NCBI RefSeq assembly: GCF_005774735.1
Contig: NZ_VBUM01000004.1
Span: 1-64,000 of the forward strand
DNA length: 64,000 nt
Direction of reading: 5' to 3'
From: Microbacterium sp. 5K110
GTDB taxonomy: Bacteria > Actinomycetota > Actinomycetes > Actinomycetales > Microbacteriaceae
How positions within the stretch are numbered: position 1 is the stretch's first letter; every line of letters begins with the position of its first letter. Shown in pieces: positions 4,774 through 12,372 of the stretch. The notes under the pieces were generated by a model, which was not told where the DNA came from, searched no databases, and saw nothing but the letters and a program-made list of their open reading frames with translations. The position numbers were made by a program, and so were the translations under genes.

Positions 4774-6087
4774 GTGGCAGGCACGAACACCAAGACCCGC
4801 TCCCGCAGTGCGAAGGACACAGACCTCGACACCGCGGAGGAGCCCACGACCGCGTCGAAGAAGACCGCGGCCAAGAAGGCCCCCGCCAAGGCCAAGGCCG
4901 CTCCCGCCAAGGCGAAGACCAAGGCCGGCGCCGACGACGACCTCGATGAGGACGACGTCGAGGAGGACATCGACGAAGAGATCGAGGTCGCCGACGACTC
5001 CGACGACGAGTCCGAGGACTCGGCGAAGCCCGCGGCCAAGAAGTCCGACGACGACAGCGACGACGACGACGAGACCCCGGCGACGCCCACCGAGGCCCTC
5101 CCGACCGGTGCGATCGTCATCTCCTCGAGCGACGAGGACGACGTCCCCGTCTACTCGGCGCAGATCACCGGCGCCACCGCCGACCCGGTCAAGGACTACC
5201 TCAAGCAGATCGGTAAAGTCCCGCTGCTGAACGCGGCCGAAGAGGTCGAGCTCGCCATGCGCATCGAGGCAGGCCTCTTCGCCGAAGAGAAGCTGTCGAA
5301 CATGTCCGCGGCAGAGAAGACGAGCCAGCTCGGTCTCGACCTGCAGTGGGTCGCCCGCGACGGTCAGCGCGCCAAGAGCCACCTCCTCGGCGCGAACCTG
5401 CGTCTGGTGGTCTCGCTCGCCAAGCGCTACACCGGCCGCGGCATGCAGTTCCTCGACCTGATCCAGGAGGGCAACCTCGGTCTGATCCGTGCGGTCGAGA
5501 AGTTCGACTACACGAAGGGCTTCAAGTTCTCCACGTACGCCACGTGGTGGATCCGTCAGGCGATCACGCGCGCCATGGCCGACCAGGCCCGCACCATCCG
5601 CATTCCGGTGCACATGGTCGAAGTCATCAACAAGCTCGCCCGTGTCCAGCGTCAGATGCTGCAGGACCTCGGTCGCGAACCCACGCCCGAAGAATTGAGC
5701 CGCGAACTCGACATGACCCCCGAGAAGGTCATCGAGGTGCAGAAGTACGGGCGCGAGCCCATCTCGCTGCACACGCCGCTCGGCGAGGACGGCGACAGCG
5801 AGTTCGGTGACCTCATCGAGGACACCGAGGCGGTCGTGCCGGCCGACGCCGTGGGCTTCACGATGCTGCAGCGTCAGCTCGAGTCGCTCCTGGACTCGCT
5901 CAGCGAGCGCGAGGCGGGTGTCATCCGCATGCGCTTCGGCCTGGGGGACGGCCAACCCAAGACCCTCGACCAGATCGGCGACACGTTCGGCGTGACGCGC
6001 GAGCGCATCCGCCAGATCGAGTCGAAGACGATGGCCAAGCTGCGGCACCCCAGCCGTTCGCAGTCGCTCCGGGACTACCTCGAGTGA
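4774..6087 (+). CDS. rpoD: RNA polymerase principal sigma factor (sigma-70 group 1)
   Basis: Primary housekeeping sigma factor, 437 aa. An acidic, Lys/Asp/Glu-rich N-terminal extension (about residues 1-125) is typical of actinobacterial SigA/HrdB. Region 1.2 starts at [16 protein letters not shown]. Region 2 contains the -10 recognition and melting helix, with [19 protein letters not shown] and [11 protein letters not shown]. Region 4 has the -35 HTH, with [11 protein letters not shown]. The start is GTG at 4774, with AGGCGAAAC upstream. The last codons overlap the next gene by 4 nt (GTGA). The 270-bp upstream gap (4504-4773) presumably holds its promoter; TTGACA occurs at 4701-4706, but I could not pair it with a convincing -10. 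Confidence 0.97.
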
Positions 6088-6782
6088 GCGGGCAGGCCAA
6101 CGCCGGCAAGGCGCTCACCGTCACCGTCGAGGGCACGTCGTACGCCCGCATCCCGATCCGCACCCGGGTCGTCATGCCGGGCGACGACCTCGACGCCTTC
6201 ATCCTCGAGTACGCGAAGGATGCCGTGCAGCCGGGCGACCTGCTGTTCGTCACCGAGAAGATCGTGGCGATCACGCAGGGCCGCTCGTTCAAGCTCGACA
6301 CGATCAAGCCCCGCAAGCTGGCGCTCTTCCTGTCGAAGTACGTCACCCGCACGCCCTACGGCATCGGTCTCGGCATGCCCGAGACGATGGAGATGGCGCT
6401 GCGCGAGTGCGGCACCCCTCGCATCCTGTTCGCCGCGGCCGTTTCGGCCGTGACCAAGGCATTCGGTCGCAAGGGAGACTTCTACCGCATCGCGGGCGAC
6501 AAGGCCCGCGCGATCGACGGCCCCACCAAGGGCACGATCCCGCCGTACAACCAGGCGGTCGTCCTGGGTCCGGAGCGCCCTCGTGAGGTCGCCGCGCACC
6601 TGAAGTCGCTGCTCGGCGTCGACCTGCAGGTCGCGGTCGTCGACATCAACGACCTGGGCGGCAACATCCTCGGGTCCACCATGGACAAGGCCGGCGAGAA
6701 GCGCCTCGTCGCGATCCTGAAGGACAACCCGCTCGGCCAGGGCCACGAGTCGACGCCGCTCGGCATCGTCCGCCCCGCCTGA
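6084..6782 (+). CDS. CofE/F420-0:L-glutamate-ligase-like protein
   Basis: A 232-residue protein resembling the coenzyme F420-0:gamma-glutamyl ligase fold (PF01996-type), with the N-terminal stretch [11 protein letters not shown] and [18 protein letters not shown] as the clearest family hallmarks. Catalysis on F420 is not demonstrated: no other F420 biosynthesis gene (fbiA, fbiC, fbiD) is in the window, so it may be a divergent paralogue. The GTG start at 6084 overlaps the rpoD stop by 4 nt, so translation is coupled to the principal sigma factor. A strong hairpin terminator follows at 6796-6829. Confidence 0.75.
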
Positions 6783-7114: not shown

Positions 7115-8137
7115 TCAGAAGCCGATCGCGGCTTGGTAACGGGGCTTGTGGCCGGTGCGGATGCCGGTGACGCTGGGCTTGTTCTCATAGACGCCGGCAC
7201 CCCAGTTGCCCTCGACGAGCACGGGTCCCTCGGGGCCGACGACGATGTCCCAGCCGACGTACTGCACCTGCGGGACGACGCGGGCGACCTTGTCGACGAA
7301 CGCCTTCACCTCGTCGATCATCGGCAGCTGGAAGTCGCCGATGCGGGCCCCGGAGTCGGGGTGGTTCTCGTGCACGTGCCCGTGCGAGTCGTAGCCGGCG
7401 CCGAGGGCGTGGCCGTTCTCGTCGAGCATCGTGTAGAAGCCGCCGAAGGTCATCTGGTCGCTCACCGCTCCGCGACCGAACTTCTGCGCCATGGCCAGGA
7501 TGTGCGTCTTCTCCCCGTCGAAGAACGCCGTGACACGCGTGGTGTTGACGGTGCCGGGGCAGACGGCGGCGAGGTCGTCGTGCTGGCGGATGACCTCTTC
7601 GACGAGGATCTCGCCGCGCTCGAGCAATCCGCGGTGGAACTCCGCCCAGTCCTCGATCTCGGCCGCGTGGTAGCGGTGCACGCCGGTTCCGGCCTGGCCC
7701 ACGGGCTCCTTGGTGACGATCGTGCCGAGACGCTCGGTGAAAGCGCGGAGCTCGTCGACGTTGCCTTGCTCCACGATCATCCAGTCGCGGCGGAGGAACT
7801 CGCTGAACCGGCGATCGAACTCGACCTTGTCCTGGAAGATGTAGCGATAGTCGGGGTGGTCGAACTTCTGCGAGATCTGGTTCGACACCGGGTGCGTCAT
7901 GTACGTCGCGCGCTCGGCCGGGCTGAGGATCGCGAAGTCGTAGTCGATGTAGTCCTGGAAGCCGACGTTCTTCACGCCCGCCTGGTACAGCATGTCGGCG
8001 ACCACGAGGGGCAGGGCTTTGCCGTGCTGCGCGGAGGCCTCTTTCGCTCGCTCGACCACCGACCCGACGTCGATGCGGCGGGCGCGTCCGGCGAGGTAGC
8101 GCAGACGGGTGACGGGGGAGAAACCCTGCTGAGGCAT
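7115..8137 (-). CDS. Sugar-transfer-associated ATP-grasp family protein
   Basis: A 340-residue protein of the ATP-grasp superfamily, probably the ATP-grasp_ST (PF14397) type. ATP-binding features are IVTKEPVGQAGTGVHR (phosphate-loop-like) and the metal-binding C-terminus WDIVVGPEGPVLVEGNWGAG. ATP-grasp enzymes join a carboxylate to an amine or thiol through an acyl-phosphate; the substrate here is unknown. The start is taken as ATG 8137, which gives only a 46-bp divergent gap from the racemase-like gene at 8184. A role with these racemases in cell-wall amino-acid chemistry is possible but unproven. Confidence 0.8.
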   Translation of the reverse strand: MPQQGFSPVTRLRYLAGRARRIDVGSVVERAKEASAQHGKALPLVVADMLYQAGVKNVGFQDYIDYDFAILSPAERATYMTHPVSNQISQKFDHPDYRYIFQDKVEFDRRFSEFLRRDWMIVEQGNVDELRAFTERLGTIVTKEPVGQAGTGVHRYHAAEIEDWAEFHRGLLERGEILVEEVIRQHDDLAAVCPGTVNTTRVTAFFDGEKTHILAMAQKFGRGAVSDQMTFGGFYTMLDENGHALGAGYDSHGHVHENHPDSGARIGDFQLPMIDEVKAFVDKVARVVPQVQYVGWDIVVGPEGPVLVEGNWGAGVYENKPSVTGIRTGHKPRYQAAIGF

Positions 8138-8183: not shown

Positions 8184-8828
8184 GTGACCTCCGCGCCTTC
8201 CGTCCGTGCCGACGCCGGCCGAGGAGTGGCTCCGGTGGCCCGCCTGTCGGAGTCGGCGTTGCGCGCGAACGCTCTTCTCGCTCCCGTCGGGCCCGTCGAC
8301 GACGTCCTCGCCGTCGACGCGTGGGGCCACGGCGCGGAGTGGGTGGCATCCGTCCTCTCCACGCTGGACGTCGACGCCGGTGCCCTCGACGCGGCGACCC
8401 TGTTCGGGCTGCCCGGCGGCGATCCGCGGGCACGGCCCGTGCTGTCGCTGCACGGCCGCGTGCTCGGCACGAAGCCGCTGCGGGCGGGCGAGGGCGTGTC
8501 CTACGGCTACACGCACCGCGCCCCACGGGACACGACGGTCGCGCTCGTCACGGGCGGCTACGCGCAGGGCGTCGTCCGGTCCCTCGGCAACGCCGTCGAC
8601 GTCGCGATCGACGGGCGGCGTCATCGGATCGTCGGCCGTGTCGCGATGGACGTCTGCGTCGTCGACGTCGGCACCGCGCGACCCGTCCGCGGTGCCGACG
8701 TGGTCTTCTTCGGCGACCCCGAGTCGGGTCAGCCGTCGCTCCGGGAGTGGATGGATGCCACCGGCTGGGGCGCGGGCGAGATCGTCGCGGCCATCGGTGC
8801 GCGTGCGGAGCGGACGGTGGGCGCATGA
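8184..8828 (+). CDS. Alanine-racemase-like protein: C-terminal domain with deleted barrel
   Basis: A 214-residue relative of fold-type III alanine racemases that keeps mainly the C-terminal beta domain. It contains GEGVSYGYTH, in which Y107 corresponds to the catalytic tyrosine (Tyr265 of the Geobacillus enzyme), plus GGYAQG and GRVAMD. The N-terminus retains a short relic, AVDAWGHG, that aligns with the VKANAYGHG motif, but the PLP lysine is replaced by A43 and most of the TIM barrel is missing. On its own it should not bind PLP as a Schiff base. It overlaps the next gene by 4 nt (ATGA). That gene encodes the complementary half, suggesting joint function. The start is GTG 8184. Confidence 0.85.
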   Translation: MTSAPSVRADAGRGVAPVARLSESALRANALLAPVGPVDDVLAVDAWGHGAEWVASVLSTLDVDAGALDAATLFGLPGGDPRARPVLSLHGRVLGTKPLRAGEGVSYGYTHRAPRDTTVALVTGGYAQGVVRSLGNAVDVAIDGRRHRIVGRVAMDVCVVDVGTARPVRGADVVFFGDPESGQPSLREWMDATGWGAGEIVAAIGARAERTVGA

Positions 8829-9883
8829 CCGCCGAGTACCGGGTCGACCTCGACGCCTTCGCGCGCAATCTCACCCGGGTCCGAGAAGCCATCGCGCCCG
8901 CCGAGCACATGCTCGTCGTGAAGGACGACGCCTACGCGCACGGACTCGAGGCGATCGTGCAGCGGGCGACCGACGAGGGGGTCCGGTGGTTCGGCGCCTT
9001 CGACGTGGTGACCGGCCGAGCGGTCCGCGCCGTCGCCGGACCGGAGGCCCGGATCTTCGTCTGGCTGCTGGGCGGTGCCGACGACCTCGCGGACGGCATC
9101 GCGGCGGGTCTCGACCTCGGCATCGGCGACGAGTCCCTGCTCGACGACCTCGCAGCCCTCCCCGTGCCGACTGCACCGGCCCGCGTGCACCTCAAGATCG
9201 ACACGGGCCTGCACCGCAACGGCATCCGTCCCGAACGCTGGGACGCGGCGTTGGAGCGCCTCTCCGGGCTTGTGGATGCCGGCCGCGCCCGGTTCGAGGG
9301 CCTGTGGTCGCACATCGCCGAGGCCTCGGATGCCGACGACGACGACGCGCGCGCGATCTTCCTGGCTGCGCGGGAATCCGCCGTCGCCGCGGGGCTCACG
9401 CCGCGCTACTCGCACCTGGCCGCCAGCGCCGCGGGGTTCGCCCGAGCGCCGTTCCGTGAAGACCTCGTGCGGGTGGGGGCGTTCTCGTACGGCATCCGCC
9501 CCGCAGGCGGACCGGGGGAGTCGGAGTTGGGGATCGAGCCGATCTCTGCCCTCGTCGGCACCGTGACCGGCGTCATGGACGACACGGTGCGCGTGGACGT
9601 CGGCTCTCTTCTGGGTATTCCCTCTTCGCTGTCGGGGCGATTCTCCGTCCACACGCCCGCGGGCCCGCGCCTGATGCTCTCCATCGACGCCACCTCTGCG
9701 GTGGTCGCAGGATGGCAGGATGCCGCGATCGGCGACGAGGTGACGGTGTTCGGGCGCGGGGGAGTGGCATCCGCGACCGATCTGGCGGAGCTGATCGACA
9801 CGATCGGCGAGGAGATCGCTCTGCGGGTCTCGCCCGCCATCACCCGCCGCTACACGTCGAACGGGCCCCGTTCCGCTCGGTGA
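8825..9883 (+). CDS. Alanine-racemase-like protein: intact PLP barrel, degenerate C-terminal domain
   Basis: A 352-residue fold-type III PLP enzyme. The N-terminal barrel has the PLP-lysine motif VVKDDAYAHG (K33), the substrate region HLKIDTGLHRNGI, and VRVGAFSYGIRP with the conserved arginine. The C-terminal domain is recognisable (VGDEV-like IGDEVTVFG), but the segment that should contain the SYGxT catalytic tyrosine is absent, and GYADG and CMDQ are replaced by GSLLG and SIDA. The canonical racemase active site takes its lysine from one subunit's barrel and its tyrosine from the other subunit's C-domain; the upstream, translationally coupled gene supplies exactly the missing piece. The real substrate (Ala, Ser or other) is unknown. 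Confidence 0.88.
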   Translation: MTAEYRVDLDAFARNLTRVREAIAPAEHMLVVKDDAYAHGLEAIVQRATDEGVRWFGAFDVVTGRAVRAVAGPEARIFVWLLGGADDLADGIAAGLDLGIGDESLLDDLAALPVPTAPARVHLKIDTGLHRNGIRPERWDAALERLSGLVDAGRARFEGLWSHIAEASDADDDDARAIFLAARESAVAAGLTPRYSHLAASAAGFARAPFREDLVRVGAFSYGIRPAGGPGESELGIEPISALVGTVTGVMDDTVRVDVGSLLGIPSSLSGRFSVHTPAGPRLMLSIDATSAVVAGWQDAAIGDEVTVFGRGGVASATDLAELIDTIGEEIALRVSPAITRRYTSNGPRSAR

Positions 9884-9916: not shown

Positions 9917-10138
9917 TCAGTCGGCGGCGTTGAGACGAGCGGTCTCGTCGTGCCACGACGTCGCGATGCTGCGGAGCTTCTCTTCGTACTTGCGTCCGTG
10001 GTGGGCGCAGAAGAGGAGTTCGCTGCCGTTGACCTCGGCGGCGATATAGGCCTGCGCCCCACAGGAGTCGCAGCGATCCGCCGCCGTCAGGCGGTGGTCG
10101 AGAACGACGGACGCTTCGGGTGCGGTCGTAGTGGTCAT
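9917..10138 (-). CDS. DUF7455 small zinc-ribbon-like protein
   Basis: A 73-residue protein with CDSCGAQA and FCAHHGRKY, a probable zinc-binding pair (CxxC and CxHH). Small proteins of this kind are common next to type II topoisomerase genes in actinobacteria; the function is unknown. The ATG at 10138 is preceded by GAGGAGGG. It is divergent from parE across 164 bp that should hold both promoters. Confidence 0.85.
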   Translation of the reverse strand: MTTTTAPEASVVLDHRLTAADRCDSCGAQAYIAAEVNGSELLFCAHHGRKYEEKLRSIATSWHDETARLNAAD

Positions 10139-10302
10139 CTCGGGTGCCCTCCTCGTGGTCGTTGGGCGAGTCTGTCAATAGAACCACGGGGACGTTTCCC
10201 TTATGCCGCGTGGGCCTGACATTTCGCTGTGCGCGTACGTCGGCCCCGCGGGGCCGTGTGTCTGCAAGCCGATGTCGGGGCCCCCGATTACGCTGGGAGA
10301 TC

Positions 10303-12372
10303 GTGACGTCCGAGTATTCCGCCCATCATCTCCAGGTCCTCGAGGGCCTCGAAGCGGTACGCAAGCGCCCGGGCATGTACATCGGTTCCACCGATTCCCG
10401 TGGCCTCATGCACTGCCTGTGGGAGATCATCGACAACTCCGTTGACGAGGCGCTCGGCGGGCACGGCTCGCGGATCGAGATCGTCCTCCACGGCGACGGC
10501 AGCGTCGAGGTGCGTGACCGCGCCCGCGGCATCCCGGTCGACGTCGAACCGCGCACCGGACTCACCGGCGTCGAGGTCGTCTTCACGAAGCTCCACGCCG
10601 GCGGCAAGTTCGGCGGCGGCTCCTACGCGGCCTCCGGCGGCCTTCACGGCGTCGGTGCGTCGGTGGTCAACGCGCTGTCCGAGCGTCTCGACGTCGAAGT
10701 CGACCGCAGCGGCAAGACCTACGCGATGTCGTTCCACCGGGGTGAGCCGGGTGTGTTCTCCGGCGACGGCCCCGACTCGACCTTCACCCCGTTCGAGCGC
10801 AGCAGCGAGCTCCGCGTCGTCGGCAAGGCCCCGCGCGGCGTGACCGGCACCCGCATCCGGTACTGGGCCGACCGCCAGATCTTCACGAAGGATGCCGCGT
10901 TCGGTTTCGACGAGCTCGTGCAGCGCGCGCGTCAGACGGCGTTCCTCGTTCCCGGGCTCGAGATCGTCATCGCCGACCAACGGGGCGAAGAGCCCGTAGA
11001 GACGAGCTACCGCTTCGACGGCGGCATCTCGGAGTTCGCCGATTTCCTGGCCCCCGACAGCGCGATCACCGACACGTGGCGCTTGACCGGCACGGGCACC
11101 TTCACCGAGACCGTCCCGGTACTCCAGCCGGGCGGGTCGATGGTGCCGACCGACGTCGAGCGCGCCTGCGAGGTCGACATCGCCGTGCGCTGGGGCACGG
11201 GCTACGAGACCACGACACGGTCGTTCGTCAACATCATCGCCACGCCCAAGGGCGGCACGCACCAGCAGGGCTTCGAGCAGGGGCTCATGAAGATCCTCCG
11301 GACGCAGGTCGAGCAGAACGCCCGCAAGCTCAAGGTCGGCAACGACAAGATCGAGAAAGACGACCTCCTCGCCGGCCTCACCGCCGTGTTGACGGTGCGC
11401 CTCCCCGAGCCGCAGTTCGAGGGACAGACCAAAGAGGTGCTCGGCACCCCGGCCGTGCGCCAGATCGTCGCACAGGTGGTCACGAAAGAACTCGCTGCCC
11501 GCTTCGCCTCGCCCAAACGCGATGACAAGGCGCAGACGGCGCTGCTGCTCGAGAAGGTCGTCTCCGAGATGAAGGCGCGCATCTCCGCGCGCACCCACAA
11601 AGAAACCCAGCGTCGCAAGAACGCCCTCGAGTCCTCGTCGCTCCCGTCGAAGCTCGTCGACTGCCGCTCGAACGACGTCGCCGACTCCGAACTCTTCATC
11701 GTCGAGGGCAACTCGGCGCTCGGGACGGCGCGCGACGCGCGCAACAGCGCCTACCAAGCGCTCCTCCCCATCCGCGGCAAGATCCTCAACACGCAGAAGG
11801 CGTCGATCAGCGACATGCTGTCCAACGCCGAATGCGCGTCGATCATCCAGGTGATCGGGGCCGGCTCGGGTCGTTCGTTCGACCTCGACGCGGCCCGCTA
11901 CGGCAAGATCATCCTGATGAGCGACGCCGACGTCGACGGCGCCCACATCCGCACGCTGCTGCTGACGCTGTTCTTCCGGTACATGCGGCCGCTCGTCGAG
12001 GCCGGGCGCGTCTTCGCCGCGGTCCCGCCGCTGCATCGGGTGATCGTGATGAACCCGGGCTCCAAGCCCAACGAGACGATCTACACCTACAGCGAGCAAG
12101 AGCTGCACGCGCTGCTGGCGAAGCTCAAGAAGTCCAACAAGCGCTGGCAGGAGCCGATCCAGCGGTACAAGGGCCTGGGCGAGATGGATGCCGATCAGCT
12201 CGCGACCACCACGATGGACCGCGCCGGCCGCACGCTGCGCCGCGTACAGGTCCGCGACATCGAGGAAGCCGCCAAGGTCTTCGACCTGCTGATGGGCAGC
12301 GACGTGGCCCCGCGCCGCGAATTCATCGTGGACTCCAGCGACCGCCTGGCGCGCGAACGCATCGACGTCTGA
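10303..12372 (+). CDS. parE: DNA topoisomerase IV subunit B
   Basis: ATPase subunit of the type IIA topoisomerase that decatenates chromosomes; 689 aa. The GHKL ATPase domain has the N-box EIIDNSVDEALGG and the lid-region stretch GGLHGVGASVVNALS. The transducer domain is followed by TOPRIM with VEGNSALG and SDADVDGAHI. The C-terminus carries the conserved YKGLGEMDADQL. The start is GTG 10303, with GGGAGA upstream; the open frame extends back to 10144 but that part looks non-coding. It is named parE rather than gyrB because it lies next to a convergent parC and has the shorter ParE-like length. Confidence 0.92.
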   Translation: MTSEYSAHHLQVLEGLEAVRKRPGMYIGSTDSRGLMHCLWEIIDNSVDEALGGHGSRIEIVLHGDGSVEVRDRARGIPVDVEPRTGLTGVEVVFTKLHAGGKFGGGSYAASGGLHGVGASVVNALSERLDVEVDRSGKTYAMSFHRGEPGVFSGDGPDSTFTPFERSSELRVVGKAPRGVTGTRIRYWADRQIFTKDAAFGFDELVQRARQTAFLVPGLEIVIADQRGEEPVETSYRFDGGISEFADFLAPDSAITDTWRLTGTGTFTETVPVLQPGGSMVPTDVERACEVDIAVRWGTGYETTTRSFVNIIATPKGGTHQQGFEQGLMKILRTQVEQNARKLKVGNDKIEKDDLLAGLTAVLTVRLPEPQFEGQTKEVLGTPAVRQIVAQVVTKELAARFASPKRDDKAQTALLLEKVVSEMKARISARTHKETQRRKNALESSSLPSKLVDCRSNDVADSELFIVEGNSALGTARDARNSAYQALLPIRGKILNTQKASISDMLSNAECASIIQVIGAGSGRSFDLDAARYGKIILMSDADVDGAHIRTLLLTLFFRYMRPLVEAGRVFAAVPPLHRVIVMNPGSKPNETIYTYSEQELHALLAKLKKSNKRWQEPIQRYKGLGEMDADQLATTTMDRAGRTLRRVQVRDIEEAAKVFDLLMGSDVAPRREFIVDSSDRLARERIDV

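Follow-up and report, generated by a model that had tools for sequence, protein, structure and literature searches.

A tandem gene pair of Microbacterium as a probable heteromeric racemase of the alanine racemase family

Two overlapping genes of Microbacterium, here called A and B, quite probably encode the subunits of an obligate heteromeric PLP-dependent amino acid racemase of the alanine racemase family. In this proposal B would supply the barrel with its PLP lysine, together with the residues holding the cofactor and the substrate carboxylate, and A would lend the C-domain that carries the tyrosine as second acid/base, just as the partner chain does in an ordinary homodimer. Of the two usual active sites, one would be retained. 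A heteromeric racemase is well supported by the sequence comparisons, and A and B are very probably functional only as a pair. The pair appears to have descended from a tandem duplicate, and the same reciprocal loss was apparently repeated in Leifsonia and Homoserinibacter.

Results

The gene pair and its models

The window, the whole stretch of 64,000 nucleotides that was analyzed, contains both genes and the neighbors discussed below (Table 1). The first-pass annotation had proposed that the two genes are coupled, and indeed the TGA of A and the ATG of B overlap as ATGA at 8825-8828. The only Pfam family in A is Ala_racemase_C (PF00842; residues 86-211, E 6.5e-31, 107 bits over a cut-off of 25), preceded by an N-terminus that is a short remnant of the first barrel strand and helix. 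B matches Ala_racemase_N (PF01168) over residues 7-226 (E 1.6e-44, 152.7 bits against a cut-off of 24.1), with a weak and partial match to Ala_racemase_C at profile positions 68-127 (25.1 bits against the cut-off of 25). Both proteins miss the TIGR00492 equivalog cut-off of 168, A scoring 96.7 and B 101.6. The residues read by the first-pass annotation were borne out by alignment: A carries tyrosine Y107 in VSYGYT and alanine, Ala43, at the position of the PLP lysine; B carries lysine K33 in VVKDDAYAHG, has a gap at the SYGxT site and a C-domain devoid of the SYGxT hairpin, and its GYADG and CMDQ motifs are altered (GYADG to VDVGSLLG, MDQ to IDATSAVV).

Table 1. Coordinates of the gene pair, its neighbors in the window and the GatD-like gene of M. 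resistens
Feature	Position	Strand	Remarks
rpoD/sigA-type sigma factor	4774..6087	+	Left border of the conserved locus; product presumably of the rpoD/sigA-type family
CofE-like amide ligase (PF01996)	6084..6782	+	GatD-like gene in this place in other loci; role putative
ATP-grasp protein (PF14397, E 1.5e-30)	7115..8137	-	Divergent; start taken as ATG 8137
Subunit A	8184..8828	+	GTG start, 214 aa; alanine racemase C-domain, Y107 (VSYGYT)
Subunit B	8825..9883	+	ATG start, 352 aa; complete barrel, PLP lysine K33
parE-type topoisomerase subunit	10282..12372	+	Right border of the conserved locus; start approximate; product presumably of the parE-type family
GatD-like protein of M. resistens	L126:6953-7726		Stands beside MurT with both Pfam domains

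Single-chain AlphaFold2 models are of high confidence for both B (mean pLDDT 94.7, pTM 0.91) and A (mean pLDDT 88.8, pTM 0.85). The B model aligns with the alanine racemase (Alr) of S. lavendulae (1vfh, VIA; Z 41.1, rmsd 1.9, 348 residues), and the A model with 201 residues of the 373-residue chain of the M. tuberculosis enzyme (6scz, VIA; Z 23.0, rmsd 2.5). Among the structure matches listed, all 50 for B are racemases, as are those for A except two engineered proteins.

Two complete racemases with both the lysine and the SYG motif are encoded elsewhere in the genome (L001 and L002). A complete alr elsewhere together with a pair that is not conserved had been named beforehand as evidence against the proposal; the first of these exists, and the pair is nevertheless conserved. 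Since the pair is not the sole racemase, the complete enzymes point to a special role for it and are not counterevidence.

Reciprocal conservation of catalytic residues

In alanine racemase structures each active site draws the K39 set of residues from one chain and the Y265 set from the other; residue numbers here follow what we take to be the Geobacillus Alr numbering. We aligned 57 pair rows (L007-L033 and L036-L065, of which L036 is the window), representing 56 distinct loci because L024 and L045 are one locus; L003 and L006, which are the window again, and the complete racemases L001, L002, L034 and L035 were excluded. Equivalents of the PLP lysine K39 and of K129, R136, H166, S204 and R219 are present in B in 57/57 rows, and the Y265 column of B is a gap in all 57, so the tyrosine whose presence in B would have spoken against the proposal is absent throughout. 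In A the equivalents of Y265, Y284 and M312 are found in every row, D313 is found in 47 and replaced by N in 10, and the lysine position always holds some other residue (R 31, A 13, D 7, T 4, P 1, S 1). Each residue set of the shared site thus survives in exactly one gene of all 57 pairs, as the first-pass annotation had seen in one. The same picture emerges when the window is taken together with 26 pairs found in titled records, a set from which L117, L121 and L180 were left out as partial at contig ends: K33 in 27/27, Y107 in 27/27 and A without the lysine in 27/27.

The two genes stay together. An A locus was detected in 27 of 34 other genomes of the genus in the relatives search, with B adjoining A in all 27, and the 30 best loci of a family-level search covering 299 genomes, one of which (L036) is the window's own, have A next to B in 30/30 cases. 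A match to B at E <= 1e-55 was found in 100 of 119 genomes of the genus in an earlier, smaller set and in 295 of 366 in the larger one, for which as a rule five candidates per genome were scored; both counts include the query genome. The pair also occurs in other genera. Co-occurrence, which had been suggested as a check, is therefore widespread, and together with the lack of the tyrosine in B it supports the reading of the pair as a probable obligate heteromer.

When start codons are assigned by rule, the start of B in 56/57 rows falls between 13 nt upstream and 44 nt downstream of the end of the A stop codon, a 4-nt overlap being the commonest arrangement. In the remaining row, L050 (the same as L161, from the MAG Microbacteriaceae LF-bin-143), A and B lie in one open frame of 716 codons, consisting of a barrel-length A part that lacks the lysine and YGHG, a C-domain with ISYGYTYR, and then B. 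The barrel remnant is not recognizable in A of L048, L051, L057 and L065. The first-pass annotation's description of A as having lost most of its barrel consequently holds for some lineages and not for the fusion.

The rpoD-parE locus

A comparison of 21 pair loci, 20 from relatives and the window, found parE in 21/21 and rpoD in 20/21. All 21 contain either an ATP-grasp gene (13 loci) or a GatD-like gene (8 loci, seven recognized by clustering and L078 by profile), and the 27 titled parE-locus pairs, the fusion counted with 26 others, divide into 17 with the ATP-grasp gene, 9 with the GatD-like gene and 1 with neither. In the window the ATP-grasp gene lies 46 bp from A and is divergently transcribed from a likely ATG at 8137, in agreement with the first-pass annotation, and its product is a possible ligase partner in the pathway. 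A parE-type gene was found in 16/16 genomes searched. Where the pair is missing, ATP-grasp and GatD-like genes can still lie beside parE; the neighborhood is therefore partly positional, and the locus favors a cell wall role but is no proof of one. Outside the parE region, the pair of M. schleiferi (L220) has an ATP-grasp gene directly upstream on the same strand, and the pair of APC 4015 (L221) has neither an ATP-grasp nor a GatD-like gene within 16 kb.

Several features of this locus are recorded here as separate observations. In part of Microbacterium and relatives, a CofE-like ligase and a PF14397 ATP-grasp protein replace the GatD-like gene between rpoD and parE, as if one ligase system had been exchanged for another. 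Three pair-less loci of the same genus (L103, L108 and L109) have two tandem ATP-grasp genes on one strand in the same place. A possible small protein is encoded on the minus strand between B and parE (window 9920-10139, approximate), with conserved pieces in some relatives. The record L153, which bears the title Planococcus sp. APC 4015, looks mislabeled, since its rpoD-parE locus resembles that of Microbacterium and its ParE is 87% identical to the query.

MurT was looked for in a single locus, that of M. resistens (L126), where MurT (PF08245, PF08353), the GatD-like protein (PF07685), A and B follow in this order on one strand. The column of the glutaminase cysteine in 50 GatD-like sequences of the Microbacteriaceae holds T in 19, G in 17, A in 10, S in 3 and N in 1, and cysteine in 0/50; these are profile hits above 100 bits, with some species perhaps counted twice, and hits of 100 bits or less, such as L162 and L188, were excluded. 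The cysteine is kept in 8/8 controls from other families of the order, and a ninth control, which belongs to the Microbacteriaceae itself, lacks it; L241 and L242 (under 100 bits) and loci with no profile hit were excluded as controls. In group-B walls the alpha-carboxyl of D-Glu carries the cross-bridge, with which an apparent loss of glutaminase chemistry would fit. According to PMC6085368, MurT/GatD amidates the D-Glu of the peptidoglycan precursor, and replacement of Cys94 by glycine in S. aureus abolishes amidation.

Cell wall chemistry and the distribution of the pair

PMC10757982 reports D-ornithine walls for M. testaceum, for the M. liquefaciens clade with M. maritypicum, and for M. 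indicum, L-lysine walls for M. arborescens and M. imperiale, and D-ornithine for M. radiodurans, though it lies in the M. arborescens cluster. PMC10978784 lists ornithine for the type strain of M. schleiferi and for strain ET2, the latter described as L-ornithine from an amino acid analyzer. The pair is present in three species reported to have D-ornithine, M. testaceum (L113, L114), M. maritypicum (L152) and M. indicum (L167); in M. schleiferi, strain FXH-192, for which the ornithine report concerns the type strain; and in ET2 (G471), for which L-ornithine, taken literally, counts against a D-ornithine role. It is absent in M. arborescens (G591), reported to have L-lysine, which is not among the B positives of the 366 genomes. 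The tally is thus three D-ornithine, one ornithine and one L-ornithine species with the pair and one L-lysine species lacking it, six species only. The identity of G591 follows from 100% identity over 124 residues to PDB 2yjj, which we take to be from M. arborescens. Eight relatives of G591 (92-98%) are likewise not among the B positives of the 366 genomes; of these nine genomes, G377 and G520 are listed as negative and the other seven are counted from their absence among the positives, and M. radiodurans, with its D-ornithine, may be one of the nine. M. saccharophilum (Lys) was not recognized, the best identity being 89% among 38 GH68 sequences (one genome twice) to 3vsr, presumably the M. 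saccharophilum fructofuranosidase. Eight species with no wall typing here also have the pair: M. jejuense, M. aoyamense, M. yannicii, M. luticocti, M. resistens, M. murale, M. aurantiacum and M. kyungheense.

Outside Microbacterium, Curtobacterium walls contain D-Orn and Leifsonia walls are of the Dab type, despite which Leifsonia carries a pair. Rhodoluna lacicola has D-Ala-D-Dab according to PMC4156110, and in a Rhodoluna MAG a single racemase match but not the pair was found, which makes it probable that synthesis of a D-diamino acid does not require the pair. Frigoribacterium has D-Lys in a published table. A family-wide D-ornithine rule was considered and rejected, given the D-Dab of Rhodoluna lacicola, the pair-less Rhodoluna MAG, and the complete tandem racemases kept by Frigoribacterium, with its D-Lys, and by Curtobacterium. 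Within the genus, five ornithine species against one L-lysine species are thin evidence on the substrate, and the distribution is compatible with the D-ornithine hypothesis and nothing stronger.

From the locus and the wall chemistry, we infer that the pair serves peptidoglycan. Its predicted product is a D-diamino acid (in Microbacterium, D-ornithine) that would enter the group-B cross-bridge at the D-Glu alpha-carboxyl, attached there either by the neighboring ATP-grasp protein or by MurT together with the cysteine-less GatD-like protein. On the combined evidence of locus, wall chemistry and distribution, the case for D-ornithine and a neighboring ligase stands at about even odds, an estimate lowered slightly on account of the single L-ornithine report among the five for ornithine. 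That report also tempers the most specific version, which we offer tentatively and as falling somewhat short of even: a dedicated group-B D-diamino acid racemase, made a heterodimer by twice-independent complementary loss, with a repurposed D-Glu-activating machine (MurT and the cysteine-less GatD-like protein, or the ATP-grasp and CofE-like proteins) building the cross-bridge from D-Glu to D-Ala. The heteromer might instead be real and serve another D-amino acid or pathway, such as a special pool of D-Ala, D-Ser, D-Glu or D-Lys. We regard this as unlikely, though it is the strongest of the alternatives: the Leifsonia pairs and the small number of typed species, with ET2 among them, speak for it, whereas the ATP-grasp or GatD-like neighbor (accompanied by MurT in L126) speaks against it, as does the ornithine reported for all five typed species with the pair, as D-ornithine in three.

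Origin from tandem racemases

Complete racemases lie side by side in Curtobacterium (two genomes) and in Frigoribacterium, Clavibacter, Herbiconiux and Subtercola (one genome each), and both copies in all of these have the lysine and the tyrosine. The barrel tree unites 17 of 18 B rows with copy 2 of Curtobacterium and Frigoribacterium in a single starred group (100/97). The tree of the C-domain (124 columns, 67 rows) puts 17 of 18 A rows with copy 1 of the same two genera (90/92), a grouping that is not starred. That copy 2 of a tandem duplicate became B is accordingly well supported by the phylogeny, and that copy 1 became A has weaker support. In both tandem copies of Curtobacterium and Frigoribacterium (L197, L198 and L200), the equivalent of Alr K129, a lysine that is carbamylated in known structures, is replaced by C, V, G, A or T.

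The Leifsonia pairs (L131, L132 and L135) show the same reciprocal losses as the others. Leifsonia and Homoserinibacter B group with copy 2 of Herbiconiux, Clavibacter and Subtercola (98/94), and Leifsonia A has no resolved placement in the C-domain tree. A single clade of all 18 B rows is rejected, with a log-likelihood lower by 47.9 and a p-AU of 0.003, a value that is indicative because the grouping was named after the first tree had been viewed. These trees suggest a second, independent origin of the reciprocal loss in Leifsonia and Homoserinibacter, and complementary loss on two separate occasions is the pattern expected of a composite heteromer.

The phylogeny also bears on whether B could be a self-sufficient PLP enzyme with changed chemistry, to which A is a regulatory or stabilizing subunit and not the donor of the tyrosine. 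Fold-type III enzymes lacking the alanine racemase tyrosine exist, and B is a predicted full fold-type III chain that keeps every barrel residue checked; however, A retains the residue set of a partner chain (the Y265, Y284, M312 and D313 positions given above) and not a mere interface, and the same complementary losses seem to have taken place in two lineages, so that we consider a self-sufficient B improbable.

Selection on both genes

Nei-Gojobori estimates of dN/dS against L007-L010 are 0.258, 0.219, 0.277 and 0.266 for A and 0.205, 0.213, 0.255 and 0.239 for B; residues 1-85 of A alone give 0.294-0.392. Purifying selection acts on both genes, and A does not look like a decaying gene. The idea that A and B are decaying tandem duplicates, one or both becoming pseudogenes beside an intact alr, could draw on the complete racemases elsewhere in the genome, on the 71 of 366 genomes of the genus with no B match at E <= 1e-55 and on the Homoserinibacter B (L169), which looks truncated after the barrel, but it is largely refuted by the selection estimate for A and is scarcely credible beside catalytic residues invariant in 57/57 rows and a pair found across most of the genus and in other genera.

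Discussion

If the heteromeric reading is correct, the pair is a clear natural case in which a homodimer with shared sites became an obligate heteromer by complementary loss, and extant genomes still preserve its traces in tandem relatives that are complete, in a fusion and in what looks like a second origin. A, B and their neighbors would then be candidates for supplying D-ornithine and for building the group-B cross-bridge in Microbacteriaceae. A search of titles and the beginnings of abstracts found no paper on genes of this kind or on a split or heteromeric alanine racemase; the fold and chemistry are known, and the predicted division of labor between two genes appears not to be described in the literature searched.

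The closest known system is the canonical alanine racemase (PF01168 and PF00842, TIGR00492), a homodimer with composite sites shared between its two chains, which has the same fold, PLP lysine motif and tyrosine motif as the pair. The pair differs in that separate genes encode its two chains, neither of which has the parts contributed by its partner, and in its one predicted site where the homodimer has two. No single chain has both lysine and tyrosine, as A lacks the lysine and B the tyrosine in 57/57 rows, and the complementary catalytic residues are conserved in partner genes that stay together, in the 57 rows and in the fusion L161. The tandem racemases of Curtobacterium, Frigoribacterium, Clavibacter, Herbiconiux and Subtercola are adjacent like A and B, but both of their copies are complete. 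The broad-spectrum, lysine and serine racemases of fold type III (Bsr/Bar, 4dza, VanT) have the fold of B and are single-chain entries; the B model matches 4dza, titled a lysine racemase, with Z 34.2 and rmsd 2.1 over 334 residues, below its score with 1vfh. In serine palmitoyltransferase, an enzyme of another fold type, a paralogue without the PLP lysine (LCB1) completes the active enzyme with LCB2. In contrast to LCB1/LCB2, the loss in A and B is reciprocal, the fold is type III, the pair is bacterial, and in the window the partner A is little more than a C-domain.
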